Of a stretch of 64,000 nt of DNA, positions 11,665 to 18,955 are shown one piece after another. This DNA is from Thalassovita mediterranea (GTDB lineage: Bacteria; Pseudomonadota; Alphaproteobacteria; Caulobacterales; Hyphomonadaceae), in contig CP080408.1 of the NCBI GenBank assembly GCA_019448215.1, positions 2,666,001-2,730,000 on the forward strand. The letters are read 5' to 3'. How positions within the stretch are numbered: the first letter of the stretch is position 1; each line of letters opens with the position of its first letter. The position numbers were made by a program, and so were the translations under genes. Below the pieces are notes generated by a model. The model saw only the letters and a program-made list of their open reading frames with translations, was not told where the DNA came from and searched no databases.

Positions 11665-11694
11665 TGATCCACGCCACAGTTTGCCACGTAAACG
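11665..11694 (+). promoter_or_regulatory. RpoE/ChrR (ECF11)-type promoter of the photolyase operon
   Basis: TGATCC at 11665-11670, an 18-nt spacer, then TAAACG at 11689-11694. This matches the known RpoE consensus of Rhodobacter sphaeroides (TGATCC, about 18 nt, TAAG-like). Transcription should begin near 11700, just ahead of AGGAG at 11714. An identical arrangement stands before the chrR-like gene. No experimental start is known here. Confidence 0.75.
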
Positions 11695-11725
11695 ACTACA
11701 ACATTGGGCAAGCAGGAGAAAAACG

Positions 11726-13180
11726 CTGGGACAGGACAATCCGGATTCTGTGATCGTCTGGTTTCGGAACGATCTTCGGCTGGCAGATCATGCGGCCCTT
11801 GCAGCCGCTGTCGAAGCGAATGCGAAGATATTCCCCGTCTATATTCTCGAAGATACGGTTGCTGGCGGCCGCGATCTTGGCGGCGCATCGAAATGGTGGC
11901 TGGATAAATCGCTGAAGTCGCTTCGCTCAGCTATTTCGCAACGCGGCGGAAAGCTGATCTGCCGGAAGGGCGATGCCGAGAAAATCCTGCGTGACCTAAT
12001 CAAGGAAACCGGCGCCGAAGCGGTTTTCTGGGGACGCAGATACACGCAGCCCGAGATCGACCGTGACGCGGACATCAAGAAAGCGCTCAAGGATGACGGC
12101 ATTGACGCAAAGAGCTTCAACACCACGCTTCTGACCGAGCCGTGGGCGTACAAGACGACGTCTGGCGGCTACTACAAGGTATTCACGCCCTACTGGCGCG
12201 CCGTGCGCGGCAGCTATGAAGCGCCCGACCCGCTACCCGCGCCGGATAAGTTCGATGGCGTCGGCATCGATGGGGACGAGATTGAGAGCTGGGGCCTGCA
12301 TCCAAGCAAGCCCGATTGGTCCAAAGGCTTCGACGAGATGTGGACCCCGGGCGAGGATGGTGCGCAGGAGAGATTGCAGGACTTTCTCGACGGCCCGATC
12401 CGCGACTATGAGGAAATGCGCAATCGTCCCGATGAGGATGGCACGTCAGGCCTCTCCCCTCACCTGCGACATGGCGAGATCAGCCCGGCGACGATCTGGC
12501 GGGCAGTTATGGGGCGCATCAATCGCGGCCTGAAGGAAGAGGAAAGCGCCTGGTCATTCCTCTCCGAAATCGTCTGGCGTGAATTTTCCTATGTCCTGAT
12601 TTATCATAACCCGAAGATGGGACGTGAGAATTACGACAGTAAATTCAATGTGATGGAGTGGAGATCCAGTAAAAAGGATCTTCACCGCTGGCGGAAAGGC
12701 GAAACCGGCTATCCGATCGTCGATGCGGGTATGCGCCAGCTTTGGGCAACAGGCTGGATGCATAATCGCGTCCGGATGATCGTGGCCTCCCTGCTGACCA
12801 AACACCTGCTCCTTAACTGGACCGAAGGCGAAGACTGGTTCTGGGACACGCTTGTCGATGCGGATCCTGCATCGAATGCAGCCGGTTGGCAGTGGACGGC
12901 CGGATCTGGCGCAGATGCATCGCCCTATTTCCGGGTCTTCAACCCAATCACGCAGGGCCAGAAGTTCGACCAGACCGGTGCCTACGTGCGTCATTGGTGC
13001 CCGGAGCTGAAGAAGCTTCCCAACAAGCATCTCCATGCACCCTGGGAGGCGGGCCGCGACGTACTGAAGAAAGCGGGCATTGAGCTTGGGAGCACCTATC
13101 CCAAACCGATTATCGCACACAAGGAAGGGCGCCAGCGTGCGCTTGATGCCTGGGAAGCGCTTAAGGAAAAGCAGGACTGA
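11726..13180 (+). CDS. phr: deoxyribodipyrimidine photolyase (cryptochrome/photolyase family)
   Basis: Light-driven flavoenzyme repairing UV pyrimidine dimers. Seen: N-terminal antenna domain beginning VIVWFRNDLRLADHAAL; FAD-domain signatures TGYPIVDAGMRQL and TGWMHNR near residues 335-355; then WTAGSGADASPYFRVFNP. About 484 residues, normal for class I. The start is uncertain. The predicted transcript begins near 11700, which rules out upstream TTG codons. AGGAG at 11714-11718 sits at ideal distance from an in-frame CTG (11726), and the alternative is GTG 11750. First gene of a four-gene operon behind an ECF11-type promoter. Confidence 0.95.
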   Translation: MGQDNPDSVIVWFRNDLRLADHAALAAAVEANAKIFPVYILEDTVAGGRDLGGASKWWLDKSLKSLRSAISQRGGKLICRKGDAEKILRDLIKETGAEAVFWGRRYTQPEIDRDADIKKALKDDGIDAKSFNTTLLTEPWAYKTTSGGYYKVFTPYWRAVRGSYEAPDPLPAPDKFDGVGIDGDEIESWGLHPSKPDWSKGFDEMWTPGEDGAQERLQDFLDGPIRDYEEMRNRPDEDGTSGLSPHLRHGEISPATIWRAVMGRINRGLKEEESAWSFLSEIVWREFSYVLIYHNPKMGRENYDSKFNVMEWRSSKKDLHRWRKGETGYPIVDAGMRQLWATGWMHNRVRMIVASLLTKHLLLNWTEGEDWFWDTLVDADPASNAAGWQWTAGSGADASPYFRVFNPITQGQKFDQTGAYVRHWCPELKKLPNKHLHAPWEAGRDVLKKAGIELGSTYPKPIIAHKEGRQRALDAWEALKEKQD

Positions 13181-13182
13181 GA

Positions 13183-14514
13183 ATGAAGAAAATTGCTGTC
13201 ATCGGCTCAGGCATTACCGGTCTTGGCGCTGCCTATGCACTGAAAGACACGGCTGACGTCACCGTGTTTGAAGCGCGTGAGCGCGCCGGTGGTCATGCTC
13301 ACACGCGGACCATCGACTATGACGGGCATGAGCTGAACGTCGATGTCGGCTTCATCGTCTATAATGGCCGCAACTATCCCAACCTCACAGGTTTCTTCGA
13401 TGCGCTGGGCGTGGAGACAGAGCAAAGCGATATGAGCTTTGCAGTGTCGAATGAAGACGGGTTCGAGTGGGCTTCGACCGTAAAAGGCATGTTCGCCCGC
13501 AAGCGGAACCTGTTGCGACCTCGGTTTCACAAATTCTGGCGCACGATCCTCAAATTCAACGACATTGCCCGCGAGGACCTTGCGGCCGGACGGATCGGCA
13601 ATGAGACGCTGGGTGTGTGGCTGAACCAGAAAGGGTTCAGCGAGGACTTCAAGCAGAACTATATCCTTCCGATGGGCGGCGCGATCTGGTCGACGCCCCC
13701 TTCAGAGATGCTGGACTATCCGGCGCTAAGTTTCTTCCGCTTTTTTGAGAACCATCGCCTGATGCATGCCGAGCGCCCAAAATGGCGCACGGTGACTGGT
13801 GGGTCCAGGCAATATGTCGACAAGGCGGCGGAGGTGCTTGGCTCCCGCTTGCGCCTCAGCGCGCCGGTAAAACAAGTCAGCCCCTTCGGCCAGCATGTGC
13901 GGGTGACGACCGAGGATGGTCGTGAGCACTTGTTTGACGATGTTATTCTTGCCGTTCATTCCGATACGGCCCGCCAGATGCTGGCGCCGGCTTTCGAGGA
14001 TCAACGCTTCCTGCTGAACTCGGTCGGGTACCGCCCAAATCGCATCTATCTGCACCGGGATCCGACTTACATGCCCGACAGGAACGCAGCCTGGGCGAGC
14101 TGGAACGTCATCCAGAAGTATTCCGACGGCGAGAATATCTGCCTCACCTACTGGATGAACCTGCTTCAGAATTTGCCAAAAGATTGCCCATTGTTCGTGA
14201 CCCTGAACCCGTCCGTGCCACCTGCGGCAGACAAGGTTTTCCATGAGGTGACGTTCGATCACCCGCAATTCGACGCACCGGCCGCTGCGGCCTGCCGCTC
14301 GCTGGAGCGAATTCAGGGCGATAGGGGGCTCTGGCTTGCGGGCGCGTGGCTCGGGTCGGGCTTCCATGAGGATGGGCTGAAGAGCGGTCTTCGCGCGGCG
14401 CTCTCGCTTGGCGGACGGGTCCCTTGGGCCGCTGAGGGCGTCGAACTCGTCGTACCGTCAACGGAACGAGCCATATCTGCGGATGCCAAGGCAGCCGGGG
14501 CCGCGGCGCAGTGA
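13183..14514 (+). CDS. FAD/NAD(P)-binding amine-oxidase-like oxidoreductase
   Basis: 443-residue flavoprotein with the N-terminal dinucleotide fold GSGITGLGAAY (residues 8-18) and ERAGGHAHT typical of amine-oxidase/desaturase-like enzymes. GGAIWSTPP and a C-terminal FAD-closing LAGAWLGSGFHEDGLKSG are also conserved in this branch. Homologues commonly sit beside DUF1365 and cyclopropane-synthase-like genes, as here, and are linked to fatty-acid modification under singlet-oxygen stress. It starts 2 nt after the photolyase stop behind AGGA, and overlaps the next gene by GTGA. The exact substrate is inferred to be a membrane acyl chain. Confidence 0.88.
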   Translation: MKKIAVIGSGITGLGAAYALKDTADVTVFEARERAGGHAHTRTIDYDGHELNVDVGFIVYNGRNYPNLTGFFDALGVETEQSDMSFAVSNEDGFEWASTVKGMFARKRNLLRPRFHKFWRTILKFNDIAREDLAAGRIGNETLGVWLNQKGFSEDFKQNYILPMGGAIWSTPPSEMLDYPALSFFRFFENHRLMHAERPKWRTVTGGSRQYVDKAAEVLGSRLRLSAPVKQVSPFGQHVRVTTEDGREHLFDDVILAVHSDTARQMLAPAFEDQRFLLNSVGYRPNRIYLHRDPTYMPDRNAAWASWNVIQKYSDGENICLTYWMNLLQNLPKDCPLFVTLNPSVPPAADKVFHEVTFDHPQFDAPAAAACRSLERIQGDRGLWLAGAWLGSGFHEDGLKSGLRAALSLGGRVPWAAEGVELVVPSTERAISADAKAAGAAAQ

Positions 14515-15314
14515 GCGACACCGCCCCTGCACTGAAGCTGCACCAGGGTGAAACGGTGCACCGGCGGTTCACGCCGTTTGTGTCGGACTTTAGCTATCGC
14601 GTCTTCATGGTCGAAGTTGATGTCGACCGGCTGGAAGATGCGCGTCGTCAGTGTCGCTTATTTGGTGTCGATGAAGGCGCGCTTTTTGGCTTTCGGACAG
14701 ATGAGCATGGCGCCCAGGGTGGGCAGTCATTGCGGGGCTGGGCACACGAGCGGCTGCTGGAGGCGGGCGTGGACGCGTCTGCGCTCAAGCTGAAGCTCAT
14801 CACTTTTCCCCGGCACCTGTTTTACAAGTTTGCGCCCATCTCCGTCTGGATTGCGGAGGACGAGGAGGCACGCCCTGCCGGCGTTATTTACGAAGTGCGC
14901 AACACGTTCGGCGAACGCCACGTCTATGTCGCCGCCGCTGATGGCGCATGGAGCAAGCATGCCGCAGACAAGATCTTCCATGTCTCGCCATTCTTCGACG
15001 TCTCGGGAAAGTATGAGTTCTCGCTTCAGCGCGACGAAAACATGCTGCGCCTTGGCGTGAGCACAGTCTCAGACGGCGGCGTCAAACATATGGCGACCCT
15101 GTCGACCAAAGCTGCCCCGGCAACCGACCAGGCGCTTCTCCGCAAGGCCATCTTCATGCCGCTCTCCACGCTGGGGGTAACCTTGGCGATCCACTGGGAG
15201 GCTTTGAAGCTTTGGCTGAAGGGCGCAAACTATCATTCCAAACCGCATCAGGCGCAGCAAAGGGTGTCTGTTGCGACACCATCAGGCCGTGTCTTGAAGG
15301 AGAAACACCAATGA
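14511..15314 (+). CDS. DUF1365 family protein
   Basis: 267 residues; recognised from the N-terminal HRRFTPFVSDFSYRVFM block, from FGFRTDEHG, and from HVSPFFDVSGKYEF in the middle. Catalytic mechanism unknown; a conserved partner of the FAD oxidoreductase and Cfa-like genes. Starts with GTG overlapping the upstream TGA (GTGA) and ends overlapping the next start (ATGA), so it is translationally coupled on both sides. Probably helps modify phospholipid acyl chains; this rests on gene context. Confidence 0.88.
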   Translation: MSDTAPALKLHQGETVHRRFTPFVSDFSYRVFMVEVDVDRLEDARRQCRLFGVDEGALFGFRTDEHGAQGGQSLRGWAHERLLEAGVDASALKLKLITFPRHLFYKFAPISVWIAEDEEARPAGVIYEVRNTFGERHVYVAAADGAWSKHAADKIFHVSPFFDVSGKYEFSLQRDENMLRLGVSTVSDGGVKHMATLSTKAAPATDQALLRKAIFMPLSTLGVTLAIHWEALKLWLKGANYHSKPHQAQQRVSVATPSGRVLKEKHQ

Positions 15315-16543
15315 ACCAGCAGTCAGGCGAAATTCGCGCAACAGTCTCGACGCTAAGACAACTGTCCGGTGTTCCCGCGGGCTTCCGGCTTGCGGGGCTC
15401 TTCCTGCTTCGAACAGAGAATGGCTCGCTTCGCTTCAATCTGCCGGATGGGCGTTCGGTGCTGTTCGATCAGGGAAATCCCGGTCCGCATGCTGTGGTCG
15501 ACGTCCACGAGTTTGGTTTCGCTAAACGTGCTCTCGCGGGCGGCGATATCGGCTTTGCCGAAAGCTATATGGACGGCGAATGGTCCACGCCGGACCTGAC
15601 AGCGGTCCTGGAATATTTCTCGGAGAATTTCGAGGCGGCTGGAAAGCTAGCCGTTGGTGGCTCGCTCGTGAGGGGGATCAACAAGCTACGCCATATGTTC
15701 AACCGCAACAGCCGCGCCGGTGCGCGCCGAAACATCATGGCGCACTATGATCTCGGGAATGATTTCTACTCGGCCTGGCTCGATGAGACGATGACCTACT
15801 CGTCTGCCCTGTTTGACAAGCCAAACCTGTCTCTGGAGCAGGCCCAGACGGCCAAATATAAAGGTATCGCCGATCAGCTTGCTGCCGGGCCTGATAGCGA
15901 ACTGCTCGAGATTGGCTGCGGCTGGGGCGGGTTCGCCGAATATGCGGCCAAGGCGCGTGGGTCAAAGGTGACATGTCTCACCATATCCGAAGCTCAGCGG
16001 GACTATGCAGCTGCCCGGATGCAGAGAGAGGGACTGTCGGACCGTGTAGAGATCCGTCTGGAGGATTACCGCGACCATCAGGGCAAATATGATGGCGTTG
16101 CCTCTATCGAAATGTTCGAGGCGGTCGGTGAAGCGTACTGGCCGAGCTATTTCGAGAAGGTGCGTGAGAGCTTGAAGGATGATGCGAAAGCTGCGCTCCA
16201 GATTATCACGATCGAGGACCGACTGTTCCGTCGATACCGCAAGCGGACCGACTTCATCCAGCGCTACATTTTCCCGGGTGGCATGTTGCCAAGCGAAGTG
16301 GCGCTTCGAGAGTCGCTGAGCAATGCGGGGCTTCGCTTCGATGCCGTGCACTATTTCGGACAGGACTATGCCCGCACGCTGAAGCTATGGGCTGATCGCT
16401 TTGAAGAGGCCTGGGACAAGATCCAGACTTTCGGGTTCGATGAGCGCTTTCGTCGTTTGTGGCGCTTCTATCTCAGCTATTGTGAGGCTGGTTTCGGGAA
16501 TGGCCGGATCAATGTCGGCCAGTTCCAGCTATCGCGGGCATAA
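15311..16543 (+). CDS. cfa: cyclopropane-fatty-acyl-phospholipid synthase family methyltransferase
   Basis: SAM-dependent enzyme acting on unsaturated acyl chains of membrane phospholipids. 410 residues from ATG 15311, which has AGGAG about nine bases upstream; the frame stays open further 5' but without a comparable start. Seen: the substrate-binding AHYDLGNDFY, the SAM loop LEIGCGWGGFAEYAA near 195-210, the QRYIFPGG block, and the C-terminal YLSYCEAGF with the conserved cysteine. It could make cyclopropane or a methylated (furan-type) fatty acid; sequence alone does not decide. Last gene of the operon, followed by a clear terminator. Confidence 0.93.
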   Translation: MNQQSGEIRATVSTLRQLSGVPAGFRLAGLFLLRTENGSLRFNLPDGRSVLFDQGNPGPHAVVDVHEFGFAKRALAGGDIGFAESYMDGEWSTPDLTAVLEYFSENFEAAGKLAVGGSLVRGINKLRHMFNRNSRAGARRNIMAHYDLGNDFYSAWLDETMTYSSALFDKPNLSLEQAQTAKYKGIADQLAAGPDSELLEIGCGWGGFAEYAAKARGSKVTCLTISEAQRDYAAARMQREGLSDRVEIRLEDYRDHQGKYDGVASIEMFEAVGEAYWPSYFEKVRESLKDDAKAALQIITIEDRLFRRYRKRTDFIQRYIFPGGMLPSEVALRESLSNAGLRFDAVHYFGQDYARTLKLWADRFEEAWDKIQTFGFDERFRRLWRFYLSYCEAGFGNGRINVGQFQLSRA

Positions 16544-16544
16544 G

Positions 16545-16572
16545 AAAAGGCGGGCTTTGCGGCCCGCCTTTT
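16545..16572. terminator. bidirectional intrinsic terminator
   Basis: AAAAGGCGGGC / GCCCGCCTTTT arms close a short TTTGCG loop. Both strands end in a T-run, so it can end the photolyase-cfa operon (plus) and the chrR-DUF6134 operon (minus), whose stop codon lies 23 nt away. Confidence 0.9.
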
Positions 16573-16594
16573 GTCGTTCTGGTGTGAGTACTGC

Positions 16595-17302
16595 CTAGTA
16601 GAGTTCAGTCAGCACATAATCGATCTGCTGACCGCGCGCTTCGAAGCTGAGCTTCACCCAGCGCGACTGATCATCATACCAGAGATCGACAGTCAGATCT
16701 GACTGCAGCCGGTAGTGGGTGGTTTCTACTTCTTCGCCGCCAATCGTCAGGGTCTCACGGCCGATTTCGTCGACTTTGGTGTCGAGCAGCTCGCCCGTTT
16801 CAGTGGACAGGATCTGGCTGCTGAATGCCTGCTGGATGTTCCAGTGGCTAGACGGGATGATACCGAGCGGCGCATTGCCGGAATACGCTGAGCCTTCAAC
16901 GGTCAGGCTGTCGCCATTGATGCTTGCCTCGACGAATTCATCGTCGCCGTCATCATTTGTCTGGCCTTCAAGGCCGACCAGCTTGCCGTTCTTCCAGGTT
17001 TCGGTCGCGTCGAGCTCGTAGCGAAACACCGTGATCGGACCGAGGCCGGCCTTTAGCTCGACATCAGAGCGCGCCGTGAAGCTGTCTTCGGACTCGACGT
17101 CGAAGGAGATGGTGTGCGTGCCGAATTCATTGCCTTTACGCAGGACGTTGAAGACGATCTGGTCTCCGTCCTGAGGCTGCCAGGCTGCTGGCGCTTCATC
17201 CGAAACCGGCGCGCTGATGCTGTCGGTCTCAGCGCTATCGGCAAAGGCTGGTGCGGCGGTCAGCGCTGCTGCCAGCGCGAGGGTGCTGATCGAGGTTTTC
17301 AC
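16595..17302 (-). CDS. secreted DUF6134-type protein, coupled to the chrR-like gene
   Basis: 235 residues from GTG 17302, with GGAG six bases upstream and a GTGA overlap with the chrR-like stop, so translation is coupled. A cleavable signal peptide (about 1-20, TSISTLALAAALTAAPAFA) predicts export to the periplasm. The mature part shows DGDQIVFNVLRKG, FGTHTISF, FRYELDATETW and GIIPSSHWN, which recall DUF6134 proteins of beta-strand character. No catalytic site is evident. Its place behind an anti-sigma gene under an ECF11-type promoter suggests a role in envelope or light stress; this is inference. Confidence 0.75.
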   Translation of the reverse strand: MKTSISTLALAAALTAAPAFADSAETDSISAPVSDEAPAAWQPQDGDQIVFNVLRKGNEFGTHTISFDVESEDSFTARSDVELKAGLGPITVFRYELDATETWKNGKLVGLEGQTNDDGDDEFVEASINGDSLTVEGSAYSGNAPLGIIPSSHWNIQQAFSSQILSTETGELLDTKVDEIGRETLTIGGEEVETTHYRLQSDLTVDLWYDDQSRWVKLSFEARGQQIDYVLTELY

Positions 17303-17823
17303 GTGAATCTCCAGAATGGCGTATCTGCACGAGCAACGAAGCAGGTACATGCCTTGTTCCCGGATGCGGCGGGGCGGTGGCGCTCTCCGGGCGTCGCGAG
17401 AACCAGTTCTCCAGCCTCGAACGTGTCGCGCCCGTCTTCGAGGCAGCCCTCCAGAACGATCATCGCTTCCAGCGTGCTGTGTCCGTGTGCGAACACCCGG
17501 TCGCCCGGCTCCAGCCGCATCAGCGATCCGCTATTTTCTGGCAGCTTGCAGAAGCGGGCCCCAGATATGCCCTTGCGCCACATGACGGTGTTATAGTCAG
17601 TATTGATGATCTCGGTGGCGATGTCCTCCATCCGGTAGATGGCTTCCTGATGATCTTCACCGGTCGGATTGATATTGGCGCGAACCGCTTCCCAGACACG
17701 CGCAATCTCGTCGCCCTCCTCTGACATGAGGCGATGCAGGGTCGCCGCGAGGCTCATGCTGGCCGACAGATTGCCGGTCGCATAGTCCAGCATGAAGGCG
17801 TGATATGTGTCGACGTTGGACAT
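17299..17823 (-). CDS. ChrR-like anti-sigma factor (cupin), zinc-finger ligands mostly lost
   Basis: 174 residues. The N-terminal anti-sigma domain aligns with ChrR around DYATGNLSASMSLAATLH. Compared with ChrR ligands H6, H31, C35 and C38, only the second is kept (H30); the others read D5, S34 and G37. The C-terminal cupin keeps H113, H115, E119 and H149, the metal set that senses singlet oxygen in ChrR. ATG 17823 was chosen because it begins the family domain and lies about 25 nt below the predicted transcript start. No sigma gene is adjacent, unlike the usual rpoE-chrR pair. Family call is good; an active anti-sigma role is inferred. Confidence 0.8.
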   Translation of the reverse strand: MSNVDTYHAFMLDYATGNLSASMSLAATLHRLMSEEGDEIARVWEAVRANINPTGEDHQEAIYRMEDIATEIINTDYNTVMWRKGISGARFCKLPENSGSLMRLEPGDRVFAHGHSTLEAMIVLEGCLEDGRDTFEAGELVLATPGERHRPAASGNKACTCFVARADTPFWRFT

Positions 17824-17854
17824 TTCCGGGCGCTCAAACAGATTAGCTTCGAAC

Positions 17855-17884
17855 CTATTACGCGCGACAAGCCTGACTGGATCA
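17855..17884 (-). promoter_or_regulatory. RpoE/ChrR (ECF11)-type promoter of the chrR-like operon
   Basis: On the minus strand TGATCC (17884-17879), 18-nt spacer, then TAATAG (17860-17855). Same -35 hexamer and spacing as the element before the photolyase gene. It places the start of transcription near 17847, about 25 nt before the ATG of the chrR-like gene, as expected for autoregulation. Confidence 0.75.
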
Positions 17885-17950: not shown

Positions 17951-18955
17951 ATGATCCTCAACTCGGTTCTCGACGCGATCGGGAATACACCACTCATCAA
18001 ACTGCAGCGGGTTTCAGAGGAAACCGGATGCACCATTCTCGGCAAGGCCGAATTCCTCAATCCGGGCCAGTCTGTAAAGGACCGCGCGGCGCTGGGCATT
18101 GTCCGCGACGCAGAGCGCTCTGGCGCGCTGAAGCCGGGCGGCACGATTGTCGAAGGTACGGCCGGTAATACCGGCATTGGCCTCGCTCTGGTGGGCAGTG
18201 CACTTGGCTACCGCGTCGTGATCGTGATGCCGCGCACGCAGAGCCAGGAAAAGAAGCTGGCCGTGAAGCTGCTTGGTGCGGAATTGATCGAGGTGGATGC
18301 GGTCCCCTACTCCAACCCCAATCACTATGCGCGCTATTCCGGAAAGCTCGCCGAAGAACTCGCCAAGACAGAGCCGAATGGTGCGATCTGGGCAAACCAG
18401 TTCGACAATACTGCGAACCTTGAGGCGCACTATGCGACGACGGGTCCTGAAATCTGGCAGCAGACCGACGGCAAGGTCGACGGGTTCATCTGCGCGGTCG
18501 GCTCAGGCGGCACGCTCGCTGGCGTTGCGAAATACCTTCAGGAGCAGAGCAAGGACGTAAAGATCGGGATCGCTGATCCCGGCGGCGCGGCGCTCTATGA
18601 GTACTTCAAGAATGGCGAGCTGAAATCAGAAGGCACGTCGATTACCGAAGGTATCGGTCAGGGCCGTATCACCAAGAATATCGAGGACCTGAAGGTCGAC
18701 TATGCCTATCGGTGTCAGGATGACGAGGCGCTGAACATCCTCTACGACCTAATCCTGCATGAAGGCCTTTGCCTTGGCGGGTCTGCCGGTATCAACATTG
18801 CGGGCGCCGTCCGCCTCGCAAAGGACCTTGGCCCGGGCCACACGATCGTGACGATCCTCTGCGACTACGGCAATCGCTACCAGTCGAAGCTCTACAATCC
18901 TGAATTCCTGCGCAGCAAGGACCTGCCCGTTCCGCCATGGATGGAGGAAGCCTGA
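17951..18955 (+). CDS. cysK: cysteine synthase A (O-acetylserine sulfhydrylase)
   Basis: PLP enzyme joining sulfide to O-acetylserine to make cysteine. 334 residues with the N-terminal IGNTPLIKLQR, the PLP-lysine block NPGQSVKDRAAL near residue 43, EGTAGNTGIG, and the phosphate-binding GSGGT loop. The C-terminus is close to the longer alphaproteobacterial CysK branch (VTILCDYGNRYQSKL). GGAG lies eight bases before ATG 17951. First gene of a cysK-sseA-metC operon, divergent from the chrR-like gene with 127 nt between them. Confidence 0.94.
   Translation: MILNSVLDAIGNTPLIKLQRVSEETGCTILGKAEFLNPGQSVKDRAALGIVRDAERSGALKPGGTIVEGTAGNTGIGLALVGSALGYRVVIVMPRTQSQEKKLAVKLLGAELIEVDAVPYSNPNHYARYSGKLAEELAKTEPNGAIWANQFDNTANLEAHYATTGPEIWQQTDGKVDGFICAVGSGGTLAGVAKYLQEQSKDVKIGIADPGGAALYEYFKNGELKSEGTSITEGIGQGRITKNIEDLKVDYAYRCQDDEALNILYDLILHEGLCLGGSAGINIAGAVRLAKDLGPGHTIVTILCDYGNRYQSKLYNPEFLRSKDLPVPPWMEEA

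Follow-up and report, generated by a model that had tools for sequence, protein, structure and literature searches.

What controls the converging two-operon island at positions 11,665 to 17,884 of a 64,000-nucleotide (nt) stretch of the Thalassovita mediterranea genome (contig CP080408.1, positions 2,666,001 to 2,730,000; hereafter the window, meaning that whole stretch), in which a DNA photolyase operon faces a ChrR-like gene, and what is the ChrR-like protein for? We regard the island as very probably a two-operon part of a sigmaE (RpoE)-ChrR regulon of the extracytoplasmic function 11 (ECF11) type. The fuller reading, to which we give a probability of about 0.6, is that it belongs to a photo-oxidative regulon in which the ChrR-like protein, called ChrR2 (a name coined in this analysis), would be an induced second anti-sigma factor providing delayed feedback. 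An earlier note, made from the sequence alone, had proposed an RpoE-ChrR photo-oxidative stress module; conserved sites, published promoters, a known core operon and an RpoE homologue in the genome uphold that proposal, but the chrR-like gene is a diverged orphan and the sigma gene lies elsewhere, without a promoter of this type.

Each operon is preceded by an ECF11-type promoter, TGATCC-N16-CGTA, detected by pattern scan at 11665..11690 on the plus strand (photolyase operon) and at 17859..17884 on the minus strand (chrR2-DUF6134). The same consensus has been published for an RpoE/ChrR homologue (PMC5507510), and the described promoters of such homologues carry the same elements at the same spacing (PMC5507510; PMC4336711). 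The earlier note had located both promoters correctly, but its -10 hexamers, TAAACG and TAATAG, start two bases inside the conserved CGTA element, and its distance of 25-30 nt to the first start does not hold, the chrR2 ATG at 17823 being 35 nt past the -10 and the photolyase GTG at 11750 being 59 nt past it.

Both sites are conserved in relatives, the comparison on which the earlier note had let its proposal depend. In a family of 105 genomes, chrR-like and photolyase searches matched in 89 and 101 genomes, respectively, and the best 30 loci of each were taken (L024-L053 and L054-L083), leaving out L043 from the former and L074 and L082 from the latter, where the loci were cut. The exact site was present upstream of the chrR-like gene in every locus read (29/29), and a relaxed form, in which ATC[CT]-N16-CGTA follows two bases of any kind, preceded the photolyase gene in 27 of 28 loci (all except L076), with exact TGATCC in 14 of these 27. 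A second, named collection comprised 45 chrR2 loci from Henriciella, which holds the closest ones, from Hyphomonas and further Hyphomonadaceae, and from some bins with other labels, including Acidobacteria; some organisms are probably in both collections, so that the counts are not independent. At all 45 loci the site was exact, a divergent cysK lay upstream and a DUF6134 gene followed directly downstream; aligned, these sites were 100% identical in their ten core columns and averaged 46% in spacer and flanks. The full converging photolyase operon lay within the fetched flank of 21 loci, 19 of them with the relaxed photolyase-side site (not L253 or L277); one locus had a partial operon (L263) and 23 had none, six of the latter having flanks shorter than 6.4 kb.

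These observations fit a scheme in which the unlinked sigma factor, once released from its partner ChrR1, would transcribe the genes for photolyase, a flavin adenine dinucleotide (FAD) protein, a DUF1365 protein and a methyltransferase, serving DNA repair and membrane fatty-acid modification, and would also transcribe chrR2-DUF6134. This step rests on the match with the promoter consensus and on a regulon tested elsewhere; the use of these promoters by this sigma factor, and photo-oxidation as the stress, would follow by analogy. ChrR2, stress-induced and zinc-independent, would then capture the same sigma factor and damp the response, a delayed negative feedback that the resident rpoE-chrR1 operon, having no promoter of this type, would not supply, and DUF6134, also in the regulon, would be an envelope protein with a beta-barrel-like fold.

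ChrR2 (17299..17823, minus strand) combines a helical anti-sigma-like domain with a cupin, as indicated by Pfam, profile alignment and modelling, and it has no zinc motif Hx3Cx2C. A profile of 16 ChrR2 sequences aligned with residues 9-194 of Rhodobacter sphaeroides ChrR (E 1.9e-21), and an AlphaFold model built from 42 sequences (pLDDT 89.6, pTM 0.87) predicts the two-domain ChrR fold. Foldseek searches with this model placed ChrR chains of the sigma complex at ranks 1-5 (TM 0.63-0.75), the later matches listed being mostly cupins over 84-130 aligned columns. Among the 42 sequences, Y7, F10, M11, D13, G17, A26, H30 and W44 of the helical domain were invariant or nearly so. Every locus examined for it, 29 of ChrR2 and 31 of ChrR1, had the cupin motif HxHxxxE, and the zinc motif was absent from all 29 ChrR2. 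In a FastTree phylogeny of 142 proteins, to which a long-branch warning applies, the 45 named ChrR2 formed one group with support 100. A role for ChrR2 as the neighbouring partner gene of the sigma factor was ruled out, since the partner, chrR1, sits at 980.6 kb.

From fold and wiring, we lean slightly towards ChrR2 acting as an anti-sigma factor, which implies that it would bind the sigma factor. Several observations weigh against this. With the single window sequence, the cupin alone matches significantly, the score of the helical domain being 4 bits with R. sphaeroides ChrR and its E-value 0.87 with TIGR02451; against the latter the whole protein scores 54.5 bits, below the ChrR cut-off of 124.5. 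Furthermore, no sigma gene adjoins chrR2, a good number of relatives have no ChrR2, and both zinc cysteines are absent, while inhibition by R. sphaeroides ChrR requires zinc in the anti-sigma domain (PMC6852236). Anti-sigma domains without zinc are, on the other hand, known in other groups (PMC7406223), so that a ChrR2 without zinc could still bind a sigma factor. The best-surviving alternative, which we hold to be possible although clearly the less probable one, keeps the regulon and makes ChrR2 an effector or a metal/redox cupin that no longer binds sigma, its helical domain being a relic or binding DUF6134 or a protease. The lost cysteines, a short linker, the missing sigma neighbour and the insignificant single-sequence match of the helical domain would all suit such a protein, as would the retained cupin motif and the constancy of DUF6134 as neighbour (45/45). 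The conservation of helical-domain residues among the 42 sequences and the match of the full-length model to sigma-bound ChrR argue instead for the anti-sigma role.

The sigma factor itself was sought genome-wide, as the earlier note had proposed, and an RpoE homologue with an adjacent ChrR was found near 981 kb. Among ten PF04542 matches in the genome, only the one at 981.6 kb adjoins a ChrR, forming an rpoE-chrR1 pair (980601-981840) unlinked to the island. The best PDB match of this RpoE was R. sphaeroides RpoE (2q1z_A, 143.6 bits; next 65.9 bits), and ChrR1 narrowly passed the TIGR02451 cut-off (125.3-125.5 against 124.5 bits). ChrR1 also lacks the zinc motif, as do 29 of 31 loci of a first set and 95 of 98 rpoE-chrR1 loci examined in the family, with G032, G033 and G059 retaining it. 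No promoter-type site was found upstream of the resident rpoE. Nevertheless, among the 97 family loci usable for site positions (L136 gave no sigma), 28 had a site, either exact (21) or with one base changed (7), associated with rpoE or chrR1: 12 upstream of rpoE (9 exact) and 16 between rpoE and chrR1 (12 exact, including L192, L193, L195 and L196), which ties the motif to this sigma family. In the 16 loci with the intergenic site, the anti-sigma gene alone would be induced. The 12 pairs with an upstream site belong to nine genomes of the group g4, probably Hyphomonas (L137, L138, L142, L143, L145, L146, L153, L154 and L155), and to three others (L105, L106 and L150); the sigma proteins of these pairs sit on very long branches. 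In addition, an exact site was seen downstream of chrR1 in G026 (L109, about position 2358), with near-matches in several relatives, and probably reflects a conserved coding stretch.

A second alternative, that the sites serve another ECF sigma factor of the genome with overlapping specificity, is very unlikely in our judgement. By our reading, seven of the ten PF04542 matches, rpoE included, are ECF-like, the resident rpoE has no site of its own, and where the site lies upstream of rpoE the sigma proteins are on very long branches. The 16 loci with a site between rpoE and chrR1, however, have sigma proteins off these branches, and the published RpoE/ChrR promoters agree with the sites in both elements and spacing. 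The long-branch sigma-chrR pairs may themselves be replaced, non-orthologous pairs, to judge from the tree.

Taken a step further, the family data raise the tentative and rather doubtful idea that the circuit was rewired in Hyphomonadaceae, where the sigma factor would have lost positive autoregulation and ChrR its zinc site, so that the promoter would drive only an anti-sigma gene (chrR1 alone or a dedicated orphan chrR2 whose product works without zinc), and a loop that amplified the response would have become one of delayed negative feedback only. Every one of the 12 rpoE genes with an upstream site comes from a ChrR2-less genome, and none of the 57 ChrR2-bearing loci has such a site; a genome was scored ChrR2-positive when its match was better than about 1e-10. 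Sites at neither place were the rule (69/97), 47 of these loci being in ChrR2 genomes, including T. mediterranea, and 22 not. Those 22 loci, with neither a site at rpoE/chrR1 nor a ChrR2 in the genome, count against the scheme proposed above for the island and ChrR2, as does the fact that lost sigma autoregulation in ChrR2 genomes amounts to two tree changes, with sigma proteins on very long branches. Resting on two changes, the correlation is not independent of descent, and we do not claim that ChrR2 excludes sigma autoregulation (sign test p 0.5; branches 4.46 and 3.31).

In the window, TGATCC-N16-CGTA matched twice against 0.10 expected, a count reached by none of 100 shuffles. The loose pattern TGATCC-N16-19-TA matched three times against 3.12 expected, which is chance level; its third match, at 18574 within cysK, has N16 before TA, in line with the statement of the earlier note that no other element has the same spacing. 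That the TGATCC matches arose by chance and have no regulatory meaning, as the loose pattern taken by itself might suggest, is a negligible prospect and was ruled out by the count for the refined pattern and by an invariant core around a variable spacer in 45/45 loci. The genome-wide search that the earlier note had called for gave 21 TGATCN-N16-CGTA matches in the 3.22-Mb single-contig genome, six of them with TGATCC: the two of the island, one each at 766244 and 469657, and a further two that fall within longer reading frames. By eye, the site at 766244 precedes a fasciclin-like protein and that at 469657 a lipoprotein-like protein; short secreted proteins that look fasciclin-like occur alike in the T. 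mediterranea genome (L090) and in G010 (L224), and the site precedes both. R. sphaeroides RpoE drives rpoHII. An exact site stands before an RpoH-like sigma gene, so labelled by eye from its similarity to the 324-residue sigma of T. mediterranea, in at least 6 of 12 relatives searched (L225, L230, L286, L295, L296 and L299; 60 of 90 pattern matches read). The RpoH-like gene was ruled out as a regulon member in T. mediterranea, whose own copy has no site.

The DUF6134 protein (16595..17302, minus strand; Pfam PF19630, 1.6e-51) has a signal-peptide-like N-terminus, by eye, and its start overlaps the chrR2 stop (GTGA). In 30 of the 40 family genomes without ChrR2, searched with a site threshold of score 11 within 320 nt upstream, DUF6134 occurred in 23, and in 22 of these (not G013) it had its own TGATC[CT]-N16-CGTA site, always scoring at least 14.8; background windows of the same loci reached 11 in 2/414 cases and 14 in 0/414. 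DUF6134 is therefore newly predicted as a regulon member. Across the class it was found in 164 of 387 genomes, and among the best 30 loci 17 had a site scoring at least 11 within 450 nt (10 of them at least 14), making it a predicted target outside the family as well; the other 13 had no such site, three having one 870-1060 nt upstream. Its model (pLDDT 88.8) weakly resembles the DUF1849 barrel protein of Brucella (PDB 6ntr), with a beta-barrel-like fold (TM 0.50-0.55) but 7-10% identity. No paper naming DUF6134 was found in a search of the open-licence PubMed Central (PMC) literature.

On the plus strand, Pfam matches agree with the gene contents given in the earlier note: DNA photolyase (11750..13180, counted from the first canonical start, GTG 11750; FAD_binding_7 2.4e-89, DNA_photolyase 1.1e-49), an FAD/NAD-binding amine-oxidase-like protein (13183..14514; Amino_oxidase 6.2e-29), a DUF1365 protein (14511..15314; PF07103 2.5e-63) and a cyclopropane-synthase-like methyltransferase (15311..16543; CMAS 1.3e-81). 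Within the operons of the island, three of four gene junctions are overlaps of start and stop codons (GTGA or ATGA), including those at the ends of the amine-oxidase-like and DUF1365 genes, and a 2-nt gap separates the photolyase and FAD genes. Photolyase translation may start at a non-canonical codon, possibly an in-frame CTG (11726..11728) 7 nt after AGGAG and 35 nt past the -10. Such a CTG lies 5-11 nt after a Shine-Dalgarno sequence in 17 of 27 leaders from L054-L083 (L064 by eye), taken over the interval matching window positions 11714-11752, and ATT occupies the start place in 4/27. In 12 of the 27, the stretch that ends at the reference codon of the conserved N-terminus contains no in-frame ATG, GTG or TTG; four of these (L067-L070) have ATG one codon beyond it.

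Between the operons, which converge as the earlier note described, a symmetrical stem-loop (about 16545..16572) beats shuffled sequences on both strands (z -3.3, 0/200 as good; z -3.6, 1/200) and is likely the shared bidirectional terminator that the note proposed. It was not listed by a terminator consensus scan, probably because its T-run has only four residues.

The zinc site of ChrR as singlet-oxygen sensor is under debate (PMC6432622), and its precise role has been described as unknown (PMC6852236). Here, the zinc motif is missing from 95/98 ChrR1 loci and 29/29 ChrR2 of a family that shares the promoter and the core targets, and the cupin motif is present wherever it was listed; such zinc-less proteins in nature make the question of zinc sensing by ChrR testable in natural variants. 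The photolyase operon and the promoter type are of already known kinds. What the island adds to the regulon is a second, inducible ChrR and DUF6134. In the open-licence PMC literature searched, no work on a zinc-less, second or orphan ChrR was found by title or abstract opening, nor did we find a description of an orphan ChrR2 that has no zinc motif and carries the promoter at each locus examined, of a zinc-less resident ChrR or of DUF6134 as a wider target.

Compared with known systems, the closest is the sigmaE-ChrR regulon (R. sphaeroides; P. syringae PSPTO_1043; S. oneidensis RpoE2), which shares the TGATCC-N16-CGTA promoter and an RpoE homologue neighbouring ChrR in the genome. Its R. sphaeroides core set (phrB, the flavin amine oxidase RSP_1091, RSP_1090 and cfaS) resembles the plus-strand operon in photolyase, flavin amine oxidase, cfa and the RSP_1090/PSPTO_1117 homologue (PMC5507510), in agreement with the regulon membership that the earlier note had stated for the photolyase and cyclopropane-synthase-like genes. 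ChrR2 resembles R. sphaeroides ChrR (PDB 2q1z, 2z2s) in its helical anti-sigma-like domain and HxHxxxE cupin, keeping the equivalent of His31 but not those of Cys35 and Cys38 (numbering of PMC6852236). Its linker is shorter and no sigma gene is adjacent. RSP_1090/PSPTO_1117 presumably correspond to DUF1365, and neither RseA nor RskA has, to our knowledge, a ChrR cupin fused to it. These class I anti-sigma domains without zinc are like ChrR2 in having no Hx3Cx2C (PMC7406223). Unlike the known regulon, that of T. mediterranea has neither the promoter at the sigma gene nor the zinc motif in the resident ChrR, and it includes a second, orphan ChrR and, as an extra predicted target, DUF6134.

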